Positions 173 through 42,640 of a stretch of 64,000 bases of DNA are shown one piece after another. Positions within the stretch are counted from its first letter, which is position 1, and every line of letters begins with the position of its first letter. Source of the DNA: Bacteroidota bacterium (lineage in GTDB: Bacteria; Bacteroidota; Bacteroidia; Cytophagales; Cyclobacteriaceae); contig CANIVF010000011.1 in assembly GCA_947470895.1 (NCBI GenBank), positions 1 to 64,000 of the forward strand. The letters are read 5' to 3'. The translations under genes were made by a program, and so were the position numbers. The notes under the pieces are model-generated. The model did no database searches. It worked only from the letters and a program-made list of their open reading frames with translations, and was not told where the DNA came from.

Positions 173-784
173 TCAAAGCAACTTTTCAAACACAGGAGTA
201 ATCTTATTCGAAATGATCTGGTGGCCTTCAACATTAGGATGGATGCCATCGGGTTGGTTTAGTTTTTCAATACCCCCCACGGCATCCAAAATAAAGGGTA
301 TAAGCGTGGCTTTATTTTTTGTGGCGAGTTCTGGATACACACGCTTAAAGGCTTCGGTGTATTCGTTGCCCATATTCGGAGGCACCATCATGCCAGCCAT
401 TACGATTTTACAGGTAGGATATTTAGCTTTCACTTTATCGATAATGCCTTGAAGGTTTTTACGGGTCTGATCAATGGGAAGACCTCGAAGTCCATCATTA
501 CCACCCAATTCAAGCACAAAAATATCCACCGGCTGGCGTAGTACCCAATCAATCCGGCTCAGTCCACCGGCTGTGGTTTCACCGCTCAGGCCGGCATTCA
601 CTACCTTCACTTTTTTATCTGTTTTGTTCAGCTTTTTCTCCACCAGCGCAGGAAATGCCTCTTCGGGTGAAAGCCCGTAGCCAGCCGTGAGACTATCGCC
701 ATAAAACAGAATCACTTTGGGGGGGGTAGATGCCTGAAAAAACAAGACACATGCAATAAACAATACTTTTTTAGCGACTATCAT
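173..784 (-). CDS. tesA: TesA-like SGNH/GDSL esterase
   Basis: Secreted arylesterase/lysophospholipase of the TesA type (203 aa, the usual size), hydrolysing acyl esters or thioesters in the periplasm. All SGNH blocks are visible: FYGDSLTAGYG near residues 27-37 with nucleophile Ser31, Gly68 in block II, GGND with Asn96, and the DxxH block (Asp179, His182). Residues 1-20 form a hydrophobic signal peptide. It starts at an ATG and is divergent from the ABC transporter gene 84 bp away. Known: in E. coli tesA is likewise divergent from ybbA-ybbP, which supports the name. The physiological substrate cannot be told from sequence. Confidence 0.88.
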   Translation of the reverse strand: MIVAKKVLFIACVLFFQASTPPKVILFYGDSLTAGYGLSPEEAFPALVEKKLNKTDKKVKVVNAGLSGETTAGGLSRIDWVLRQPVDIFVLELGGNDGLRGLPIDQTRKNLQGIIDKVKAKYPTCKIVMAGMMVPPNMGNEYTEAFKRVYPELATKNKATLIPFILDAVGGIEKLNQPDGIHPNVEGHQIISNKITPVFEKLL

Positions 785-868
785 ATTACTAAGTTGGGGC
801 TTATTACAAACCTTGAAACAATTTTACTCATTAATCGATTTATATCTGTATTCATTAACTGAAATATC

Positions 869-19489: not shown

Positions 19490-20509
19490 ATGAAGTGTCA
19501 CAAGTTGCTCGCCATTCTTCTCTTTATTCCCGGTATTCTTTTCAGTCAGAAGCAGGATGTAGCGAAACTGTTTTTAGATGAAACGCCCTTGGAGGTCAAA
19601 CTCAGTATAGCCGTCAAAGATGTAAAGTCAATTACTACCGATACGGTGTACACGCCTTACATGATGCATTATAAGAAAGGGAATGCCTGGGACTCCATCA
19701 AGATTGAAGTGCGTGCACGAGGTAACTTCAGGCGGAAGGAATGTTATTATCCCCCGTTAAGGGTAAAGATCAAAAAGGAAGATGCCAAAGGTACACTCTT
19801 TGAAGGAAGCAGAAGTTTGAAGTTGGTATTGCCGTGCAAGCAGGTGAAGGAAAATTCATTGATTATGAAGGAATATGTCTGCTATCAGATGTATGAGCCT
19901 ATTACAAAATATACATTCAATTCACGTCTGGCCAATATCGAGTTTACCGACCTGAACAATAAAAAGATTACAGGAATAAAGTTTGCGGGATTCTTTATTG
20001 AAGATGACGATGTGGTGGCGAAACGACATCATGGAAAAGTGGTGGAAGATTTAAAATTGCATCCCAAGTCACTACAGGATAGTAATTCAGTACGGCATGA
20101 TATGTTCCAATACATGGTAGCGAATACGGATTGGTCTACTACGTTTTTGCACAATGCCAAGGTGATTCAATTGAATGAGTCTAAAAAGTATATACCACTG
20201 GCTTATGATTTCGATATGGCAGGTTTTGTCAGTGCTCCTTACGCTACTGCCAATGAAACCCTTGGTATTTCAAGCGTGCGTGAACGATTATACAGAGGCT
20301 TTTGCCGGTCGGAAGATGTGATGCAAGCCATTCGCCAGGAGTATATCAGTAAAGAGCAAACGATCAGAGACGTCATCAAGCGCTATGAAAATAGTTTTGA
20401 ACCCAAAGAGTTTGCCTCGATCATGAAATACATGGACGACTTTTTCATCACATTCAAAAGTGATTCAAGGTTTAAAAACAGCATTACCGATAAGTGCAGG
20501 ACAAACTGA
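19490..20509 (+). CDS. divergent CotH-like secreted protein
   Basis: Secreted protein (339 aa; signal peptide to about residue 19, ...GILFSQ). It has the CotH-like pattern in weaker form: VRARGNFRRKEC, a PPLRVKIKK strand, and IPLAYDFDMAGFV in place of the WDYDD motif. It is therefore probably a remote paralogue of the protein encoded on the opposite strand 97 bp away. Kinase activity cannot be claimed from sequence. Its stop is 3 bp from the end of the convergent DUF5706 gene. Confidence 0.7.
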   Translation: MKCHKLLAILLFIPGILFSQKQDVAKLFLDETPLEVKLSIAVKDVKSITTDTVYTPYMMHYKKGNAWDSIKIEVRARGNFRRKECYYPPLRVKIKKEDAKGTLFEGSRSLKLVLPCKQVKENSLIMKEYVCYQMYEPITKYTFNSRLANIEFTDLNNKKITGIKFAGFFIEDDDVVAKRHHGKVVEDLKLHPKSLQDSNSVRHDMFQYMVANTDWSTTFLHNAKVIQLNESKKYIPLAYDFDMAGFVSAPYATANETLGISSVRERLYRGFCRSEDVMQAIRQEYISKEQTIRDVIKRYENSFEPKEFASIMKYMDDFFITFKSDSRFKNSITDKCRTN

Positions 20510-20512
20510 GTT

Positions 20513-21079
20513 TTAGTTTCCCCAGGCGAGGAAACCTAAAAAGACCAGCACACTGAATACAAAACCGAACATAAACACCTGATACGCATATACCAGTAAA
20601 TTGTATTTACGCTTTAGGATGAGCCCCTGGTTATATAAATCAATGGTCATGTGTTCGTAAAGATCGTTTCCGGATTCGAGTAATTTATTTACTTCATCGA
20701 TATAACCCTGTTGGGAGTAGCTCGCAATAACGCCAAAAAATAACAGGCTGGATTTCTGCATGGTTCCTCCTACGTTTCTGGCTTTGATTAACTTAGGCCG
20801 TGCCGCCTGGATGGCAAAGATTACCGAAACCAGGCACGACAGAATAATCAACACAATGGGAATTAACATTTGAGGGCCATAGGCATCGATCTTACCAGCT
20901 ACCGCTCCGTAGCCCGTAATGGCGATGATCGAGGAAATGATCATCGTGTTTATGCTGATGATGATGTTCGCTTTATTATCAGCCATTTGGATCAGACTGC
21001 TTTGATTTTGATAAGTGGCTCTGAAAAGAGTTTCTCTGCCCCGCTCAGCTTTTTTGTTTTTGGGTTCTTTTTCCTCCAT
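20513..21079 (-). CDS. Pycsar effector-like membrane protein (DUF5706)
   Basis: Protein of 188 aa with a charged N-terminus, then the family motif QMADNKANIIISINTM (about residues 31-46) entering helix 1. A second helix is at about 70-90 and a C-terminal pair-forming helix at about 158-185. I recognise this as the PycTM/DUF5706 membrane domain. Known: in Pycsar anti-phage systems this domain is the effector, opened by cCMP or cUMP to collapse the membrane. No pyrimidine cyclase and no HD domain are encoded nearby, so here it is an orphan and may have a housekeeping role. It may share a transcript with the bestrophin-like gene upstream (70 bp gap). Confidence 0.8.
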   Translation of the reverse strand: MEEKEPKNKKAERGRETLFRATYQNQSSLIQMADNKANIIISINTMIISSIIAITGYGAVAGKIDAYGPQMLIPIVLIILSCLVSVIFAIQAARPKLIKARNVGGTMQKSSLLFFGVIASYSQQGYIDEVNKLLESGNDLYEHMTIDLYNQGLILKRKYNLLVYAYQVFMFGFVFSVLVFLGFLAWGN

Positions 21080-21149: not shown

Positions 21150-21893
21150 TTACGATAGCCGGAAATCATTTAAGCGGATATCATCAAGTCCATGTTGATC
21201 GAATGGGTTCTCCATTTGATCTTGCACGTTGTAGAGTGAAATCAGGATAAAAGTAGAGATGGCGGATAATAGATAGACAATCCAGGATTCATTCAGCGAG
21301 ATACCGTCATGCAATTTGTGATACAGGGCAGGAGTGTAGATGATCGGATACATATAAATAAAAATCAGGCAATAGGCCCTGATCGCGATGGGGGTGCGGT
21401 GGTTATTCACGGCTTCAATGTTGCTAAGACTCTCATGCACGTCTTTCATGAAACGAAAGATTTTGATGGAAGTGCCATTTCCAATTTGTTCGTTGTTTTG
21501 TTTAATGAAGAGAAAGATCTTTCCCACTTCACCATTCAGTTTTTCCTGCGTGCACGTTTTAGGACCAAGATATTCCAGCAGGAAGTCCGGGATCGCTTGT
21601 ATGATCGCTTGAATTTCTATTTTTTTTTCGGTATCAAGCTTTTTGTTTTCCTGAAAACAGTGATCGATCGTAATCAATCCAGCTTTAAATTTAGACAGGT
21701 ATTCCAGGGATTTCTCTCTTCTGCTAAACGCACTTCGTATGGTAAATACCAGCGGGAAGATAATGGCGATACTGATCAGGGCCAGGTCATAGTTATATTG
21801 AAACTCCTGGGCCAGAGTTAGGTACGAAACCAGTAATGAAATTCCAATTGCGAAAAGGGTGCGGCTATTCAGAATAGAGAGGTACTTGTTCAT
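21150..21893 (-). CDS. bestrophin-like membrane protein
   Basis: Protein of 247 aa with N-terminal hydrophobic helices (about 10-30 and 37-55), a soluble helical centre and two further helices (about 170-190 and 203-222). The C-terminal sequence MENPFDQHGLDDIRL resembles the ENPF...DLPL tail of bacterial bestrophins (RFP-TM anion channels), but the protein is shorter than most. Anion channel function is inference from that tail and the topology. It precedes the DUF5706 gene on the same strand. Confidence 0.6.
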   Translation of the reverse strand: MNKYLSILNSRTLFAIGISLLVSYLTLAQEFQYNYDLALISIAIIFPLVFTIRSAFSRREKSLEYLSKFKAGLITIDHCFQENKKLDTEKKIEIQAIIQAIPDFLLEYLGPKTCTQEKLNGEVGKIFLFIKQNNEQIGNGTSIKIFRFMKDVHESLSNIEAVNNHRTPIAIRAYCLIFIYMYPIIYTPALYHKLHDGISLNESWIVYLLSAISTFILISLYNVQDQMENPFDQHGLDDIRLNDFRLS

Positions 21894-22190
21894 GAAATAA
21901 GATAGGGTTAGGGTGTTTCTGTAAATTTAATGGAATAAATCAGTTTCGGGTATTCATCTATTCATCATCGGCATAAGTAGATGAACAATATTGGTTTAAC
22001 CGTGATGGGGATCCGGGTTGTTGATGTACTTGATTGGATCATGGCAATCTCATTTTGTTACCGATTTGATAGGAATGTTCCCAAATTGGGCTGGAATTTG
22101 ATTAGTAAACCTGTTTTTTAGCCTGATTTATCACTTTTTTGTGCTGGCATAGAATTTAAGCATAGAGTGATCAACCAAACCATTATTGTC
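21894..22190. other. intergenic region, divergent promoters
   Basis: About 300 bases between the bestrophin-like gene and the first micropeptide gene. No coding sequence or repeat was recognised. It must hold divergent promoters, but no convincing -33/-7 pair was assigned. Confidence 0.4.
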
Positions 22191-22292
22191 ATGAATACTT
22201 TAAACGCTTACCGCAAATTCAATGAGAAGTTAATCCTTCGTTTAACGATCACCTTTGCTACCATTGGTGCTACTATGCTCTTGTTGCTCTAA
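22191..22292 (+). CDS. 33-residue membrane micropeptide, copy 1
   Basis: Short ORF from ATG to TAA encoding 33 residues, starting MNTLNAYRKFNEKL. It has a basic amphipathic N-terminal half and a hydrophobic C-terminal half ending TMLLLL. It aligns without gaps to the ORF 90 bp downstream: AYRKFNEKL against FYRRFNERL, and ATMLLLL against ITMLVLL. Such conservation between tandem copies argues that it is translated. One membrane helix with the N-terminus probably cytoplasmic is predicted by eye. Function unknown; a regulatory micropeptide or a type I toxin-like peptide are options. Confidence 0.65.
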   Translation: MNTLNAYRKFNEKLILRLTITFATIGATMLLLL

Positions 22293-22381
22293 TCTGTTTC
22301 GGGTAGCCTACCGAAGACCATTTTTTAGTTGATCTTTTTAACAAACCATATTTCTATTTAACAAGTAAACCTATCTCTATT

Positions 22382-22483
22382 ATGGAAAATTTAAAATTCT
22401 ACCGCAGATTTAACGAACGTCTGCTTCTCCAGTTGATTACCGCCTTCGGAATCGTCAGCATTACTATGCTGGTGTTACTTTGA
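22382..22483 (+). CDS. 33-residue membrane micropeptide, copy 2
   Basis: Second 33-residue ORF (ATG to TGA), starting MENLKFYRRFNERL and ending ITMLVLL, a paralogue of the preceding ORF of identical length. Its leader ends ctatctctatt directly before ATG. A strong Rho-independent terminator lies 28 bp after its stop, as expected for a real short transcript. Differences between the copies are mostly conservative (K/R, L/V/I), which suggests protein-level selection. Function unknown. Confidence 0.68.
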   Translation: MENLKFYRRFNERLLLQLITAFGIVSITMLVLL

Positions 22484-22510
22484 TTATCTTACGGCTGATC
22501 ATTTAAAAGA

Positions 22511-22550
22511 AAACCAAAAGGCGATCGGTATGATCGCCTTTTGGTTTTTT
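22511..22550 (+). terminator. Rho-independent terminator after the micropeptides
   Basis: Perfect hairpin with AAACCAAAAGGCGATC paired to GATCGCCTTTTGGTTT around a short loop, followed by a T run. This is one of the clearest terminators in the window. It closes the micropeptide transcription unit. Confidence 0.88.
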
Positions 22551-22670
22551 CCTGTTTTCAAGATCTACGAAGTAGCTGAATTCATTCTTCAGCTTATGGA
22601 TTGGTATACAAGATGTTTGTGATCCTTGAGCCTATCGTGGATCAATGTGAATAATCTTTCCAGGATATCA

Positions 22671-23096
22671 TTACAAATGAATACCAGCGGCCTTACCACC
22701 ATGGTGAATGATGGTGGAGTAGAGCGTGATCATTTTTTTTTCTTCATCGTTTAATTTACCATCAGCGAGTGCCTGATCCTCTAAAAAACTCACGATGTAA
22801 TTCCGGGCCTCATCACTTTGCAGGTTCTTATGCACAAGGGCACACGAAATGGGAACCTTTACATAGATGGATTTCAGACCACCAATGGCCACTTCTTGAG
22901 TGAGGTAATCGTACAACGCCTCGCATTCCTTCCTGGCTTGTTCAGGTGTAATTTGAAACCAGCCAGAGAGCTGTGCGGTAGATGCTTTTAAATCATTCAA
23001 TTCGCCTTCCGTAAAATTGCCGTCCGACATACCGATACAAATGATCGGATTCAAAGCATGTTGAAAGAGCGTCATTTTGAATTGCGGATTTTCCAT
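22671..23096 (-). CDS. TerB-like small protein
   Basis: Protein of 141 aa from the ATG chosen here (a TTG eight codons upstream is the only longer start). It is all-alpha with two similar acidic segments, GMSDGNFTEGELNDL and ALADGKLNDEEKKMI. These match the repeated DG-x-(h)-x-x-x-E pattern of TerB/DjlA-type domains, which carry metal-binding acidic residues. No signal peptide is present, so it should be cytoplasmic. TerB-like proteins are linked to tellurite and phage stress responses, but a specific role here is not supported. Confidence 0.72.
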   Translation of the reverse strand: MENPQFKMTLFQHALNPIICIGMSDGNFTEGELNDLKASTAQLSGWFQITPEQARKECEALYDYLTQEVAIGGLKSIYVKVPISCALVHKNLQSDEARNYIVSFLEDQALADGKLNDEEKKMITLYSTIIHHGGKAAGIHL

Positions 23097-24019: not shown

Positions 24020-24093
24020 GGGCCCATAGCTCAGCTGGTTAGAGCACTTGACTCATAATCAAGGGGTCGCTGGATCGTGCCCAGCTGGGCCCA
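24020..24093 (+). tRNA. tRNA with CAU anticodon (Met or lysidine Ile2)
   Basis: Complete cloverleaf of 74 nt without encoded CCA. The acceptor stem is GGGCCCA/TGGGCCC, the D-arm GCTC...GAGC, and the anticodon stem CTTGA/TCAAG around loop CTCATAA (anticodon CAT). The variable loop is GGGTC and the T stem GCTGG/CCAGC. The T loop is unusual: it reads ATCGTGC, so positions 54 and 58 are A and T instead of the near-universal T and A. Elongator Met and the Ile2 species modified to lysidine both use CAU, and sequence alone does not separate them. Confidence 0.88.
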
Positions 24094-24104
24094 CTTAATA
24101 ATCA

Positions 24105-24413: not shown

Positions 24414-25877
24414 TCAATCCCTGACGCAACGCACAGAGAAACCCCAACCCTTATCGGAATACATCCTGCCTGCTCTGCCAGCGTTATGGAAAAGAATGCG
24501 GTTCCAGGCAGTACCAGTCTTGAATTCTGAAGAACTCCACCAGTACCCGAAGTTGCCAAGGGAGTGGAAGGTTGACGATCGATTGGTGATTCTTAAGCCA
24601 CCCGGAAGGCCTGCAATACCGCTGGTGTTATCTCCGTTTCCATTTTTAACCCATCCGCTGGTGCTTTTCATTTTTCGTCCTCCAGTAGTTTCTCCTCCTA
24701 AATAGTTGGTTGTGGCTGTCCATTCTCCATCACTTGGAATATGCCAGCCCTGGGGCGCCAGGCCGCGCGGGTCGTTTACCGCATACCAGTTATAGAGCTT
24801 GCCGTATGTGCGCCCGTTGGTGGGGTCGTTGTTATAGTAACACCAGGCGGATTGTTTGTTTTCGCCTGCGCGCTTCCATTCTTCTTCTGTTTTTGCTTCT
24901 GGTATTACCTCGCCATTGGCAAAATGGTCAACGTTCAAATTTTTGCCCAACCATTCTTGTGTGCCCACAGTAACGGTGCGCGCATCGGCAGTACCGTAGC
25001 CATAGTCGAGTGTAGTTGTAACCGGTGCTATATATACAGGCTCGGTTTTTACAATTGGCTGCGTTGTGGGTTGCGTGTTGGTTGCATCAGTGCCTGGGGT
25101 GAAATAAAAGTCTCCGGTATAATCGGAGGCAATCCAGGGGCGCTGCTCGTTGCCTGATTCGATGGCCACGTCACGGGCAACTTGCTTGAACACTTGCTCG
25201 ATATTAAGGCCTTCGGTATTGATGTATTGCAGTAGCTTGGAAGTGAAAAGACCATTGCGGCCTGTGCCATCACTGGCCACTGAACCGGGCTTGGTCGCAT
25301 AAACTATATAGGAGCCTTGGGGAGTGTCCACCATGCTCAACCCTTTTTCCCCCGAGCGGCTAAAACTGCGGAAGGGGTTGTTGCGGCAGGCATCGAGCAC
25401 AAAGATGTTCAGTCCATTGCCTGCTTCTTGTATGGCGCGCATCACGTAATCCATGTTCACGCATTGGTCGTCCAGGTCGGCTTCAATCTGAGGGTCGGCC
25501 TGGGTTGGTATCAGGTAATTAACACCCTTTACTTGCATGCCGTGGCCGGAGTAAAATACCAGGCCTGCAGCGTTTGGATTGCCCTGTAACAATTTGAAAT
25601 ATTTCAAAATGCCCTCTTGCATAACACGCTTGGTGGCAGGCTCAAATACTTCCACCACGGTGAAGCCCTTCTTTTTGAGGGTAGCGGCCATGTCGCGCGC
25701 ATCGTTGAGCGAGTTTTGCAGAGGGGCAACATGCAGATAGGATTTTACGCCTATGATGAGGGCGTATTTTTGTTGTTGTGCAAGGGTGTGCTGGCTAATT
25801 ACAACGCATAATGCAACCGTATAAAGAACTTTGGTTAATAGGTTTTTCAAAAAAATATTGATTAAGTAGGTTGTCAT
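24414..25877 (-). CDS. secreted caspase-like protein with FISUMP domain
   Basis: Protein of 487 aa. The signal peptide ends near residue 34 (...HTLAQQ). The caspase (peptidase C14) domain spans about 36-255, with catalytic His112 in FYSGHG and Cys164 in LDACRNNPF. After a Thr/Pro-rich linker, residues about 300-487 form a Fibrobacter succinogenes major paralogous (FISUMP) domain, with LGKNLNV, LYNWYAV, GWHIPSDGEWT, YWWSSSEF and the terminal GFSVRCVRD. Both domains look intact. The gene is visibly richer in G+C than its surroundings, which hints at transfer. The FISUMP part is probably a surface or carbohydrate-binding module. Peptidase target unknown. Confidence 0.9.
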   Translation of the reverse strand: MTTYLINIFLKNLLTKVLYTVALCVVISQHTLAQQQKYALIIGVKSYLHVAPLQNSLNDARDMAATLKKKGFTVVEVFEPATKRVMQEGILKYFKLLQGNPNAAGLVFYSGHGMQVKGVNYLIPTQADPQIEADLDDQCVNMDYVMRAIQEAGNGLNIFVLDACRNNPFRSFSRSGEKGLSMVDTPQGSYIVYATKPGSVASDGTGRNGLFTSKLLQYINTEGLNIEQVFKQVARDVAIESGNEQRPWIASDYTGDFYFTPGTDATNTQPTTQPIVKTEPVYIAPVTTTLDYGYGTADARTVTVGTQEWLGKNLNVDHFANGEVIPEAKTEEEWKRAGENKQSAWCYYNNDPTNGRTYGKLYNWYAVNDPRGLAPQGWHIPSDGEWTATTNYLGGETTGGRKMKSTSGWVKNGNGDNTSGIAGLPGGLRITNRSSTFHSLGNFGYWWSSSEFKTGTAWNRILFHNAGRAGRMYSDKGWGFSVRCVRD

Positions 25878-40513: not shown

Positions 40514-40592
40514 GCCTAGTCAAGTAACCCAAGGGAGTTTCACCCTTAGGTTCTCACGGAACCGTACGTGAAAGTCTCCCTTTATACGGCTC
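40514..40592 (-). mobile_element. group II intron domain V-VI relic, minus strand
   Basis: On the minus strand, 40592-40559 is a 34-nt domain V: GAGCCGTATAAAGGG pairs with CACGTACGGTTC around AGACTTT. Domain VI follows as a hairpin AACCTAAGGG/CCCTTGGGTT, then TTACTTGACT. The exact 34-nt length of domain V supports the call. The maturase gene is missing. Confidence 0.8.
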
Positions 40593-40860
40593 TTCCTGTT
40601 CAATCTCAAATGTATTTCTACATTATGGATATACCAACTTCCAGTGCGCGAATAGATCCGGTCTTTCTTCATGCTTCTTCTTCAACCACCGGAGAAAGAA
40701 AATTCTTATTCGCTTGGGTATTCATAAAGATCAAGCCTAGGCGAGGAGCAGAACTCGAATGGGTGGATGGGCAGTAGCCCAAAGCCAGATAATGATGATG
40801 ACTATCACCTTGGCACGGTTTATCAAAAGAGGATACAAATCTATGCTTGACGACTACCTG

Positions 40861-40978
40861 AACGTATCGCCACAACTGAATGAACCGCTATATTAGAGAC
40901 CTGTGCGTACCGTGGTTGGTGGGAGAGGGAGAGGCTACCTTCATCGGTGAAAAACCCGGTGAGACCGTCTATTCGATT
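40861..40978 (+). mobile_element. group II intron 3'-end relic, copy 2
   Basis: AACGTATCGCCACAACTGAA, TGAACCGC, GACCTGTGCGTACCGTGGTT and the closing TATTCGATT match relic 1 at 38026-38131 block by block. The two differ in the domain V loop region. No maturase remains upstream. Confidence 0.62.
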
Positions 40979-41049
40979 GTTCGCTGACCCTTTAATTGAT
41001 TACTGTTCACGTTGTCTTGTAGCCTGATTCTTAATTTTAATATCAGACA

Positions 41050-42114
41050 CTAGTCCTTCGAGAAGCAAGTCAGTACATCAGTTTTGAAATAAGGTTCTTG
41101 GCCTACCCAAAACATATAATTTATCTTCAGGAAGTCTTTGGCGAAGGCGTGCAACAGGGGAACAATATTGTTATGTGCGTTTTTTTTCTTTTCATCATTT
41201 ATATCACCGGTCTCACCAATGTAATTACCGTCTTGTACTGCAATCCCGAGCGGAACCGTGTAATGTCCTTCATGCATCATAGCAAGGGTATGGTTTAGTT
41301 GTCCTTTTCTTTTCACCATTAAGTCAGGACCGCCAAGTCCAACACCGATTTTCTCACCGTATTGATAAATGCCGCGTAGATAGCCTTTGTCATTTCCGGG
41401 TAGCCATTCACCGGGAATGAAATTAGCATAAATCATGGTAGTTGATTTGGGGAAACTCTTTTTTAAGGCAAGCATGTTCTCTTTTAATGCATTAACATAT
41501 TCCAGTTCGGAAAAACTTGGGTCTTTTACTTCGATCGCAGTTTCCTGGAGATTAATACCTTCTATTTTCCCATCAAATTTATCTCCCAATGCTTCAATTA
41601 GTAATTGAAATTGTTTCCTCACTTTCTTATTCCAGCGTTTTGCAACCCAACCACCAAGGCTTTTATCGTCATTGTATTGCATTACAACACCACTATCGTA
41701 TTCCACATTCAATAAATAGTCGGGAACGGCTTTGTATTTGGGGTTAAATGTTACATCCTGAATTTGGATGAATAGCTTCTTATTATAGCTTTTAAGGTAT
41801 TCATAATCTTCTTTCAAAATTGTAAAATCATATTTTCCTTTCTCAGGTTCAAAGTCACGCCATGAGTACATGATTTGCGCTCCCTTGAACATGGGATGTA
41901 AAAGTAATGGGTGATCTTTTATCAATTCCCTGTCTCTGGCGAAATAGACGAAATGTTGAATGTTGTCTTTGGTAACTGGACATGTAGCGCTTAGATATTT
42001 TTCATAAGCTTTAGCATATCGGTCGCTTTGCTTTGGTTCAGTTGGCTGCCCGTGTAAAACAGTCGTCAAGAAGAACAATAGCAACGTCATCAACTTATCT
42101 AAATTCGACATCAT
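41050..42114 (-). CDS. secreted glycoside hydrolase-like TIM-barrel protein
   Basis: Protein of 354 aa with a signal peptide (to about residue 23, ...LHGQ). QIMYSWRDFEPEKGKYDF (about 80-97) is typical of the first strand region of GH42/GH5-like (beta/alpha)8 barrels. INLQETAIE near 200 provides a candidate acid/base Glu and FWVGQEPYF near the C-terminus a second conserved acidic site. The exact family is not recognised, so substrate is unknown. It is a single gene between intron relics and next to the sugar-uptake locus, which makes a carbohydrate role plausible. Confidence 0.65.
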   Translation of the reverse strand: MMSNLDKLMTLLLFFLTTVLHGQPTEPKQSDRYAKAYEKYLSATCPVTKDNIQHFVYFARDRELIKDHPLLLHPMFKGAQIMYSWRDFEPEKGKYDFTILKEDYEYLKSYNKKLFIQIQDVTFNPKYKAVPDYLLNVEYDSGVVMQYNDDKSLGGWVAKRWNKKVRKQFQLLIEALGDKFDGKIEGINLQETAIEVKDPSFSELEYVNALKENMLALKKSFPKSTTMIYANFIPGEWLPGNDKGYLRGIYQYGEKIGVGLGGPDLMVKRKGQLNHTLAMMHEGHYTVPLGIAVQDGNYIGETGDINDEKKKNAHNNIVPLLHAFAKDFLKINYMFWVGQEPYFKTDVLTCFSKD

Positions 42115-42183
42115 TGTTTCGTTTGTCCTTTAATACAAGACCGTTTTGATTTTTTTGTCATCTGTCCGATTGGTACAAAAGGG

Positions 42184-42320
42184 CTTGCGTACAACGTTTT
42201 GCGGCTTGGTGAAGAAGCGGATTTTGAAGCACTAAACTGTTGGTATACCACAAATGTTGATACAAGGTAGAATGTTTAATTAACCAATGACCCCACGTTT
42301 TTGCCAAGCCGCTGTATGCG
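42184..42320. repeat. attC-like inverted-repeat intergenic element
   Basis: It starts GCGTACAACGTTTTGCGGCT and ends GCCAAGCCGC. GCGGCTTGG pairs with CCAAGCCGC across about 110 bases that include ACCACAAATGTTGATACAAG. I recognise this layout from recurrent Bacteroidota intergenic repeats that resemble integron attC sites. Only one copy is in the window. The right end runs directly into the group II intron-like segment. Confidence 0.5.
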
Positions 42321-42640
42321 CCTAGTATGGTGCATTGATATTCCAGACGGGAATGTAGATATATTATCCAGAGAGTGCAAGACTCTTATGTTGAAGCATC
42401 GGTGCGCATTAGTAAGTTGCAAGGTGGTTTGGATTAATCCAAGCAGTGAAGAAAGCAGGTCTACAATGTCCTCTACTGACGAATAGAAACTACATACAGA
42501 GGCACACTTGTTCGAGTGAGTTAGCACAGCTTAACGAAGCACTTCAGGTGCAACAGAGCAAGTATGTAGATGTAGCAGTGATCGATTGAAAGATAAACGT
42601 CTTACCTGGGGAGGTCTCCTGATGATGTTTACATTAAAGG
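42313..42640 (+). mobile_element. group II intron 5'-end relic (domain I-like)
   Basis: It begins TATGCGCCTAGTATGGTGC, close to the GTGCG intron start. It continues with AGTAAGTTGCAAGGTGGTTT, ATCCAAGCAGTGAAGAAAGC, AGAGGCACACTTGTTCG and CTTACCTGGGGAGGTCTC, all patterns of bacterial group II intron domain I and following sequence. The maturase gene and 3' end are absent, although 3'-end relics lie 1.3-4.3 kb away. Confidence 0.6.

Follow-up and report, generated by a model that had tools for sequence, protein, structure and literature searches.

Small accessory membrane subunits, such as CydX, KdpF, and AcrZ, bind larger inner-membrane proteins and tune them; an obligate subunit is not usually duplicated in tandem or quick to change. 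Tiny peptides of the Bacteroidota include the "smalltalk protein". Ibs and Ldr are, beside ZorO, further tandem type I toxin peptides, and type I toxin messages are usually repressed. In the literature used for comparison, type I membrane toxins are described as hydrophobic, helical and under 60 aa, with cationic residues generally in the C-terminal domain, ZorO is reported to have come out of a search for small hydrophobic proteins duplicated in tandem (PMC8309996), and the "smalltalk protein" is named in a table (PMC10434189).

The twin micropeptide genes considered here lie in a Bacteroidota genome (G000) and share with ZorO/ZorP a length under 60 aa, a predicted hydrophobic helix, basic residues and tandem copies (PMC8309996; PMC3919570). 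Unlike in ZorO/ZorP, Ibs, and Ldr, the basic residues of the twin are N-terminal and its start sites are not clearly hidden by structure. The peptides resemble CydX, KdpF, and AcrZ in being about 30 aa long with one predicted span, and differ from them in being duplicated and having no adjacent co-directional complex genes; like the "smalltalk protein", they are tiny and belong to Bacteroidota. Neither copy matches Pfam or NCBIfam (E up to 1) or PADLOC (E up to 0.01), which sets them apart from the Pfam and NCBIfam models of accessory subunits, from the "smalltalk protein" as far as NCBIfam holds a model of it (the library may lack one), and from catalogued toxin and defence families, where a match is not a defining feature and short toxins are easily missed.

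Both ORFs are found in the intergenic stretch 21894-22670 of the window, i.e., the whole stretch of 64,000 nucleotides that was analysed (Table 1). As the preliminary description had it, they are adjacent, of equal length (33 aa each) and alignable end to end: without gaps, 16 of 33 residues are identical and 22 are positive (BLOSUM62 score 83). Among 365 tandem small-ORF pairs within the window (ATG-started ORFs of 25-60 aa, at most 500 bp apart, both strands; mean score 17.3, sd 5.2), the runner-up to the twin scored 40. With one copy as query, the other is retrieved in a whole-genome search (E 1.0e-4 and 1.1e-4), and a search to E 10 gave no third copy in the same genome. The ORF listing allows copy 1 to be extended to an upstream GTG at 22167 (41 aa); the ATG at 22191 is preferred as its start because the ORF is then alignable with both relatives. 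From their sequences, copies 1 and 2 look like paralogues from one tandem duplication.

Table 1. Features in and around the twin micropeptide locus (positions in the window)
Feature	Position	Strand	Remarks
PycTM-family (PF18967) membrane protein	20513..21079	-	next after the 247-aa gene
247-aa predicted membrane protein, divergent neighbour	21150..21893	-	synteny anchor with G073; no Pfam family above cut-off
AAACC, 9 nt 5' of copy 1 start	22177..22181	+	A-rich start region
Micropeptide gene copy 1	22191..22292	+	33 aa ORF; alignment and pair-score control
Weak terminator-like hairpin after copy 1, detached T-run	22297..22316	+	stability no better than shuffles (z -0.36)
AAACC, 10 nt 5' of copy 2 start	22367..22371	+	A-rich start region
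Micropeptide gene copy 2	22382..22483	+	33 aa ORF; alignment and pair-score control
Strong intrinsic terminator closing the twin unit	22508..22550	+	hairpin and U-run; stem also faces the convergent TerB-like gene
TerB-like gene, convergent neighbour	about 22671..23093/23120	-	Pfam score below cut-off

When 62 genomes of the genus (own included) were searched with copy 1, the two self matches were followed by weak matches, of which the best was in genome G073, yet only at E 0.226. The G073 locus, which is the same DNA as JALOMN010000227.1 of the MAG "Cyclobacteriaceae bacterium isolate Prado052", has a single 37-residue ORF, whose first 33 residues include 12 that are identical and 22 that are positive when aligned with copy 2 (pairwise E 1e-6). 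This ORF lies directly upstream of an orthologue (71% identical) of the 247-aa gene, in the same divergent orientation as in the window, where the 247-aa gene starts at 21893 and points away from the twin. The 339-aa gene, the PycTM-family gene, the 247-aa gene and the micropeptide are contiguous in both genomes. A terminator-like hairpin follows the G073 ORF at about 100 bases, the next gene is again convergent, and no second copy was found in the bases read upstream of the neighbour gene. It is place and reading frame, not the E-value, that identify the G073 ORF as a true relative. The conservation beyond the genome, on which the preliminary description had made its proposal depend, thus holds narrowly, by a relative at the syntenic site in one other species; the identity of the micropeptide to that of G073 is 36% vs 71-77% for the neighbours there.

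The differences between the twin copies follow the reading frame. Of 41 base differences, 10, 11, and 20 fall on codon positions 1, 2, and 3 (stop included), and different codons are used at 10 of the 16 conserved residues (stop left out). Site counting gave pS 0.79 and pN 0.29 for the two copies, 0.94 and 0.41 for copy 1 against G073, and 0.78 and 0.39 for copy 2 against G073, with pS close to saturation, so that the exact ratio is not claimed. The DNA changes being mostly silent in the peptide, both copies have probably been kept as coding since the duplication. Random placement of the same changes on copy 1 created a stop in 9456 of 20000 runs; the observed identity was reached in 1.9% and the observed BLOSUM score in 0.02%. 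Duplication with conserved length had been taken as an argument for function; both ORFs do look coding (pS > pN), whereas the conserved length does not extend to G073, which has one copy of 37 aa.

ORFs arisen by chance, or a non-coding repeat left open by accident, are a very improbable explanation. Profile matches at E ~0.03-0.04 can be pure chance, as seen in two rejected look-alikes that run antisense inside longer frames (L120, 993 aa, SecA by eye; L077, 188 aa), a caution against relying on the G073 match by itself, and the flanks after the two copies align slightly above shuffles (P 0.04), so that some non-coding likeness may remain. Against this stand the third-position excess, the pair-score control and the synteny with G073; a non-coding repeat would not spare the frame, and the flanks before the copies show no alignment above chance (P 0.16 and P 0.15). 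The micropeptide ORFs are considered with high confidence to be coding and homologous.

The basic head and hydrophobic tail noted earlier are borne out: the net charge is +3 in copy 1, +2 in copy 2 and +2 in the G073 peptide, and the most hydrophobic 16-mer begins at residue 18 in all three. The pattern YRxFNExL...TMLxLL, proposed for finding relatives, fails as a general motif, since the third member keeps only M1, L4, Y7, R8, E12, L14, L16, and L18; the residues common to all three peptides give the family head motif M..L..YR[RK]..E.L.L.L, followed by the hydrophobic tail. AlphaFold, with an alignment of three sequences only, returned one helix at residues 2-32 (mean pLDDT 92.1, pTM 0.46), a result that most peptides of such kind would yield. 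A small hydrophobic peptide with one predicted helix is a feature of type I toxins. Hydropathy and the one-helix model together suggest that the micropeptide is likely a single-span membrane peptide.

A relative was judged present in 1 of the 61 other genus genomes. Profile searches with two- and three-member alignments, in overlapping samples of 60 genus, 390 family, 390 order and 395 phylum genomes, gave many weak matches and no other convincing relative. The weak matches that were read lay in or against longer frames, or came without head, start or hydrophobic tail; the remaining ones were dropped on frame length without reading, or left unread. Rejection one by one covered sets of nine loci (+ strand only), twenty loci (L074 among them being the G073 relative itself) and seven loci, and also L148, L077, and ten loci partly overlapping the twenty. 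There was no match for the micropeptide in PHROGs, and no convincing relative in phage and plasmid records (tblastn, copy 2). Back-translated patterns, run on genome and viral contigs, gave 102 and 18 pattern matches, none confirmed at a limit of E 1e-3 that could miss members as diverged as that of G073. A degenerate DNA pattern was found in 7 stretches, and a relative is encoded in just one of them, L108, whose DNA is that of G073; a further search of this type gave 1 stretch, not a relative.

Besides its own locus, 16 loci with orthologues of the 247-aa gene (40-79% identity) were fetched, and 14 were readable upstream; L067, with 4 bases on that side, and L070, at a contig end, were left out. 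A filter requiring a hydrophobic 16-mer plus an aromatic-basic pair within the head leaves one relative in these 14 loci, that of G073. Of 14 other loci examined, 9 have the 339-aa gene near the 247-aa gene, and 2 (G067 and G073) have the PycTM gene beside it. With a relative in just 1 of the 59 other genomes of the genus, the TerB-like gene is placed outside the conserved block.

These neighbours bear on the possibility that the peptides are accessory or regulatory subunits tuning a larger inner-membrane protein, with the 247-aa protein and the PycTM-family protein as candidates. Such a role, which we regard as a tenable minority reading, agrees with the size of the peptides, their single predicted span and the constraint on both copies, with an A-rich start context suited to steady translation, and with the same neighbours in G000 and G073. 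It is opposed by duplication and fast change, and by the lack of constant company with the 247-aa candidate partner, which seems not to need the peptide because none was detected in 13 of the 14 readable loci.

Other genes in the window were recorded along with these neighbours. The 339-aa protein (19490-20509, +) has a below-cut-off match to NA-iREase2 (PF22723). A Pfam scan of 11 proteins from the window showed no nucleotide cyclase. A tRNA-Met (CAT) lies beyond the micropeptide locus in both genomes, at 24020-24094 (+) in the window and at 712-788 (+) of L058 from G073, its orientation relative to the 247-aa gene differing between the two. The gene at 24414-25877 (-) encodes a protein that combines a caspase domain (Peptidase_C14) with a Fib_succ_major domain, and two group II intron matches occur on opposite strands within 40519-42600 (RF00029, 40519-40594, -; RF02001, 42428-42600, +).

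In a tree of 15 loci (247 columns kept), both carriers of the micropeptide fall into one well-supported group of seven genomes, the order inside which is mostly unsettled, and they are sisters in 0% of 200 bootstrap trees. Since the carriers are not sisters, the history must include two or more gains or losses, or else a transfer; loss of the micropeptide gene in relatives, or its movement, is probable. The family is rare, fast-changing and new, and ordinary in kind. Its rare, patchy distribution and low identity would also fit a young or loosely constrained gene with some other membrane peptide role, e.g., a stress-induced envelope signal, a secreted or self-sensing peptide, or a weak lineage-specific product. 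We consider such roles rather unlikely, though still deserving a place among the readings; the constraint seen in three pairwise comparisons indicates that the sequence matters.

The strong terminator that had been described after the twin was confirmed. Its stem is a perfect 17 bp (22510-22526/22532-22548), starting 26 bases past the second stop, and the hairpin, at -28.1 kcal/mol, is equalled in stability by 0 of 200 shuffles. Short ORFs followed by a terminator could suggest leader peptides for attenuation of a downstream gene; the next gene is convergent in both genomes and a co-directional gene directly downstream is absent from both, which leaves this explanation with hardly any credibility.

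The AAACC element before both copies is also present 10 nt 5' of the G073 start, i.e., in 3 of 3 micropeptide ORFs vs 0 of the 34 ORFs in the window with 150 aa or more, a comparison in which the first in-frame ATG was taken as start and the element was short and spotted before testing. In Flavobacterium johnsoniae, A at -14 to -11 is reported as a positive start-region feature (PMC6847099). Start-region folding amounts to -5.4 kcal/mol for copy 1 and only -1.7 kcal/mol for copy 2, and comparison with shuffles revealed no unusual folding in the 72 bases at the copy 1 start or the 89 bases before copy 2. Promoter scans gave no sigma-70 or Bacteroidota promoter match above chance (one further scan had no control), and no Rfam family reached the gathering score in the micropeptide region.

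A near-palindrome, TTCCCAA(A/T)TTGG, occurs in a partly alike stretch (P 0.008) that precedes the start by about 100-130 bases, in G000 (window 22063-22089) as well as in G073 (L058, 1250-1275, reverse strand), and this stretch may be an operator. A regulon search in both genomes with 3 mismatches gave 87 and 49 sites, more than the 35 and 14 of the reversed control. The search is too loose for a regulon to be named, and it missed the window's own site, where the spacing differs.

Pairing between the upstream strand and the start regions, as strong in 2 of 200 shuffles for copy 2 and in 10 of 200 for copy 1, is suggestive; elsewhere, the same scan was equalled by 50 of 200 shuffles for G073 and by 147 and 128 of 200 for two other segment pairs. 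Copy 1 is flanked by a 15-base repeat, AATC(A/T)GTTTCGGGTA, at 21938-21952 and 22291-22305, with no other mismatch-free site in the genome and one more with one mismatch. Its match of 14/15 was reached in 6 of 200 shuffles; with ORF letters masked, as the second repeat begins in the stop codon, the best match is 12/15, and 60 of 200 shuffles reach 13. The segment 21943-21957, which overlaps the first repeat, is complementary to the copy 1 start at 12 of 15 bases (10 of 500 shuffles reach 12), and the duplex of this region with the copy 1 start was matched by 4 of 300 shuffles. Repeat and pairing near copy 1 are a lead to putative RNA control.

In the mechanism favoured, a gene present once in G073 would have been duplicated in tandem to give two paralogous single-span peptide genes. 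Each peptide would form one continuous helix, its hydrophobic C-terminal half (18-33) lying in the inner membrane and its head, basic and amphipathic (about residues 5-17), at the inner face. The peptides would be free-standing and dose-controlled and would act on the membrane itself, like tandem type I toxin peptides, with the dose set by copy number and RNA-level control, and not be a fixed subunit of one complex. Such type-I-toxin-like action, proposed by analogy, is a tentative reading that we hold to be possible; it is only slightly favoured over the accessory-subunit reading, the two mechanisms being close to even. It draws on a unit that stands free of any co-directional partner gene, is duplicated in tandem, occurs patchily and changes fast, and is weakened by cationic residues that are N-terminal here and C-terminal in most type I toxins, and by start regions that look suited to translation (AAACC at -15/-14, weak folding above all at the copy 2 start). 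Less likely still, and on balance doubtful, is the fuller picture of an RNA-controlled type-I-toxin-like tandem locus whose peptide family has no kinship with known toxins and whose start sites would pair with RNA made from the upstream strand.

If toxin-like, the twin would exemplify a kind of system of which a title-level literature search touching type I toxins in the Bacteroidota gave no clear case. Small membrane peptides are easily missed by annotation, and here the sequences of two paralogues and a single syntenic relative are enough to derive a family motif and a coding constraint.
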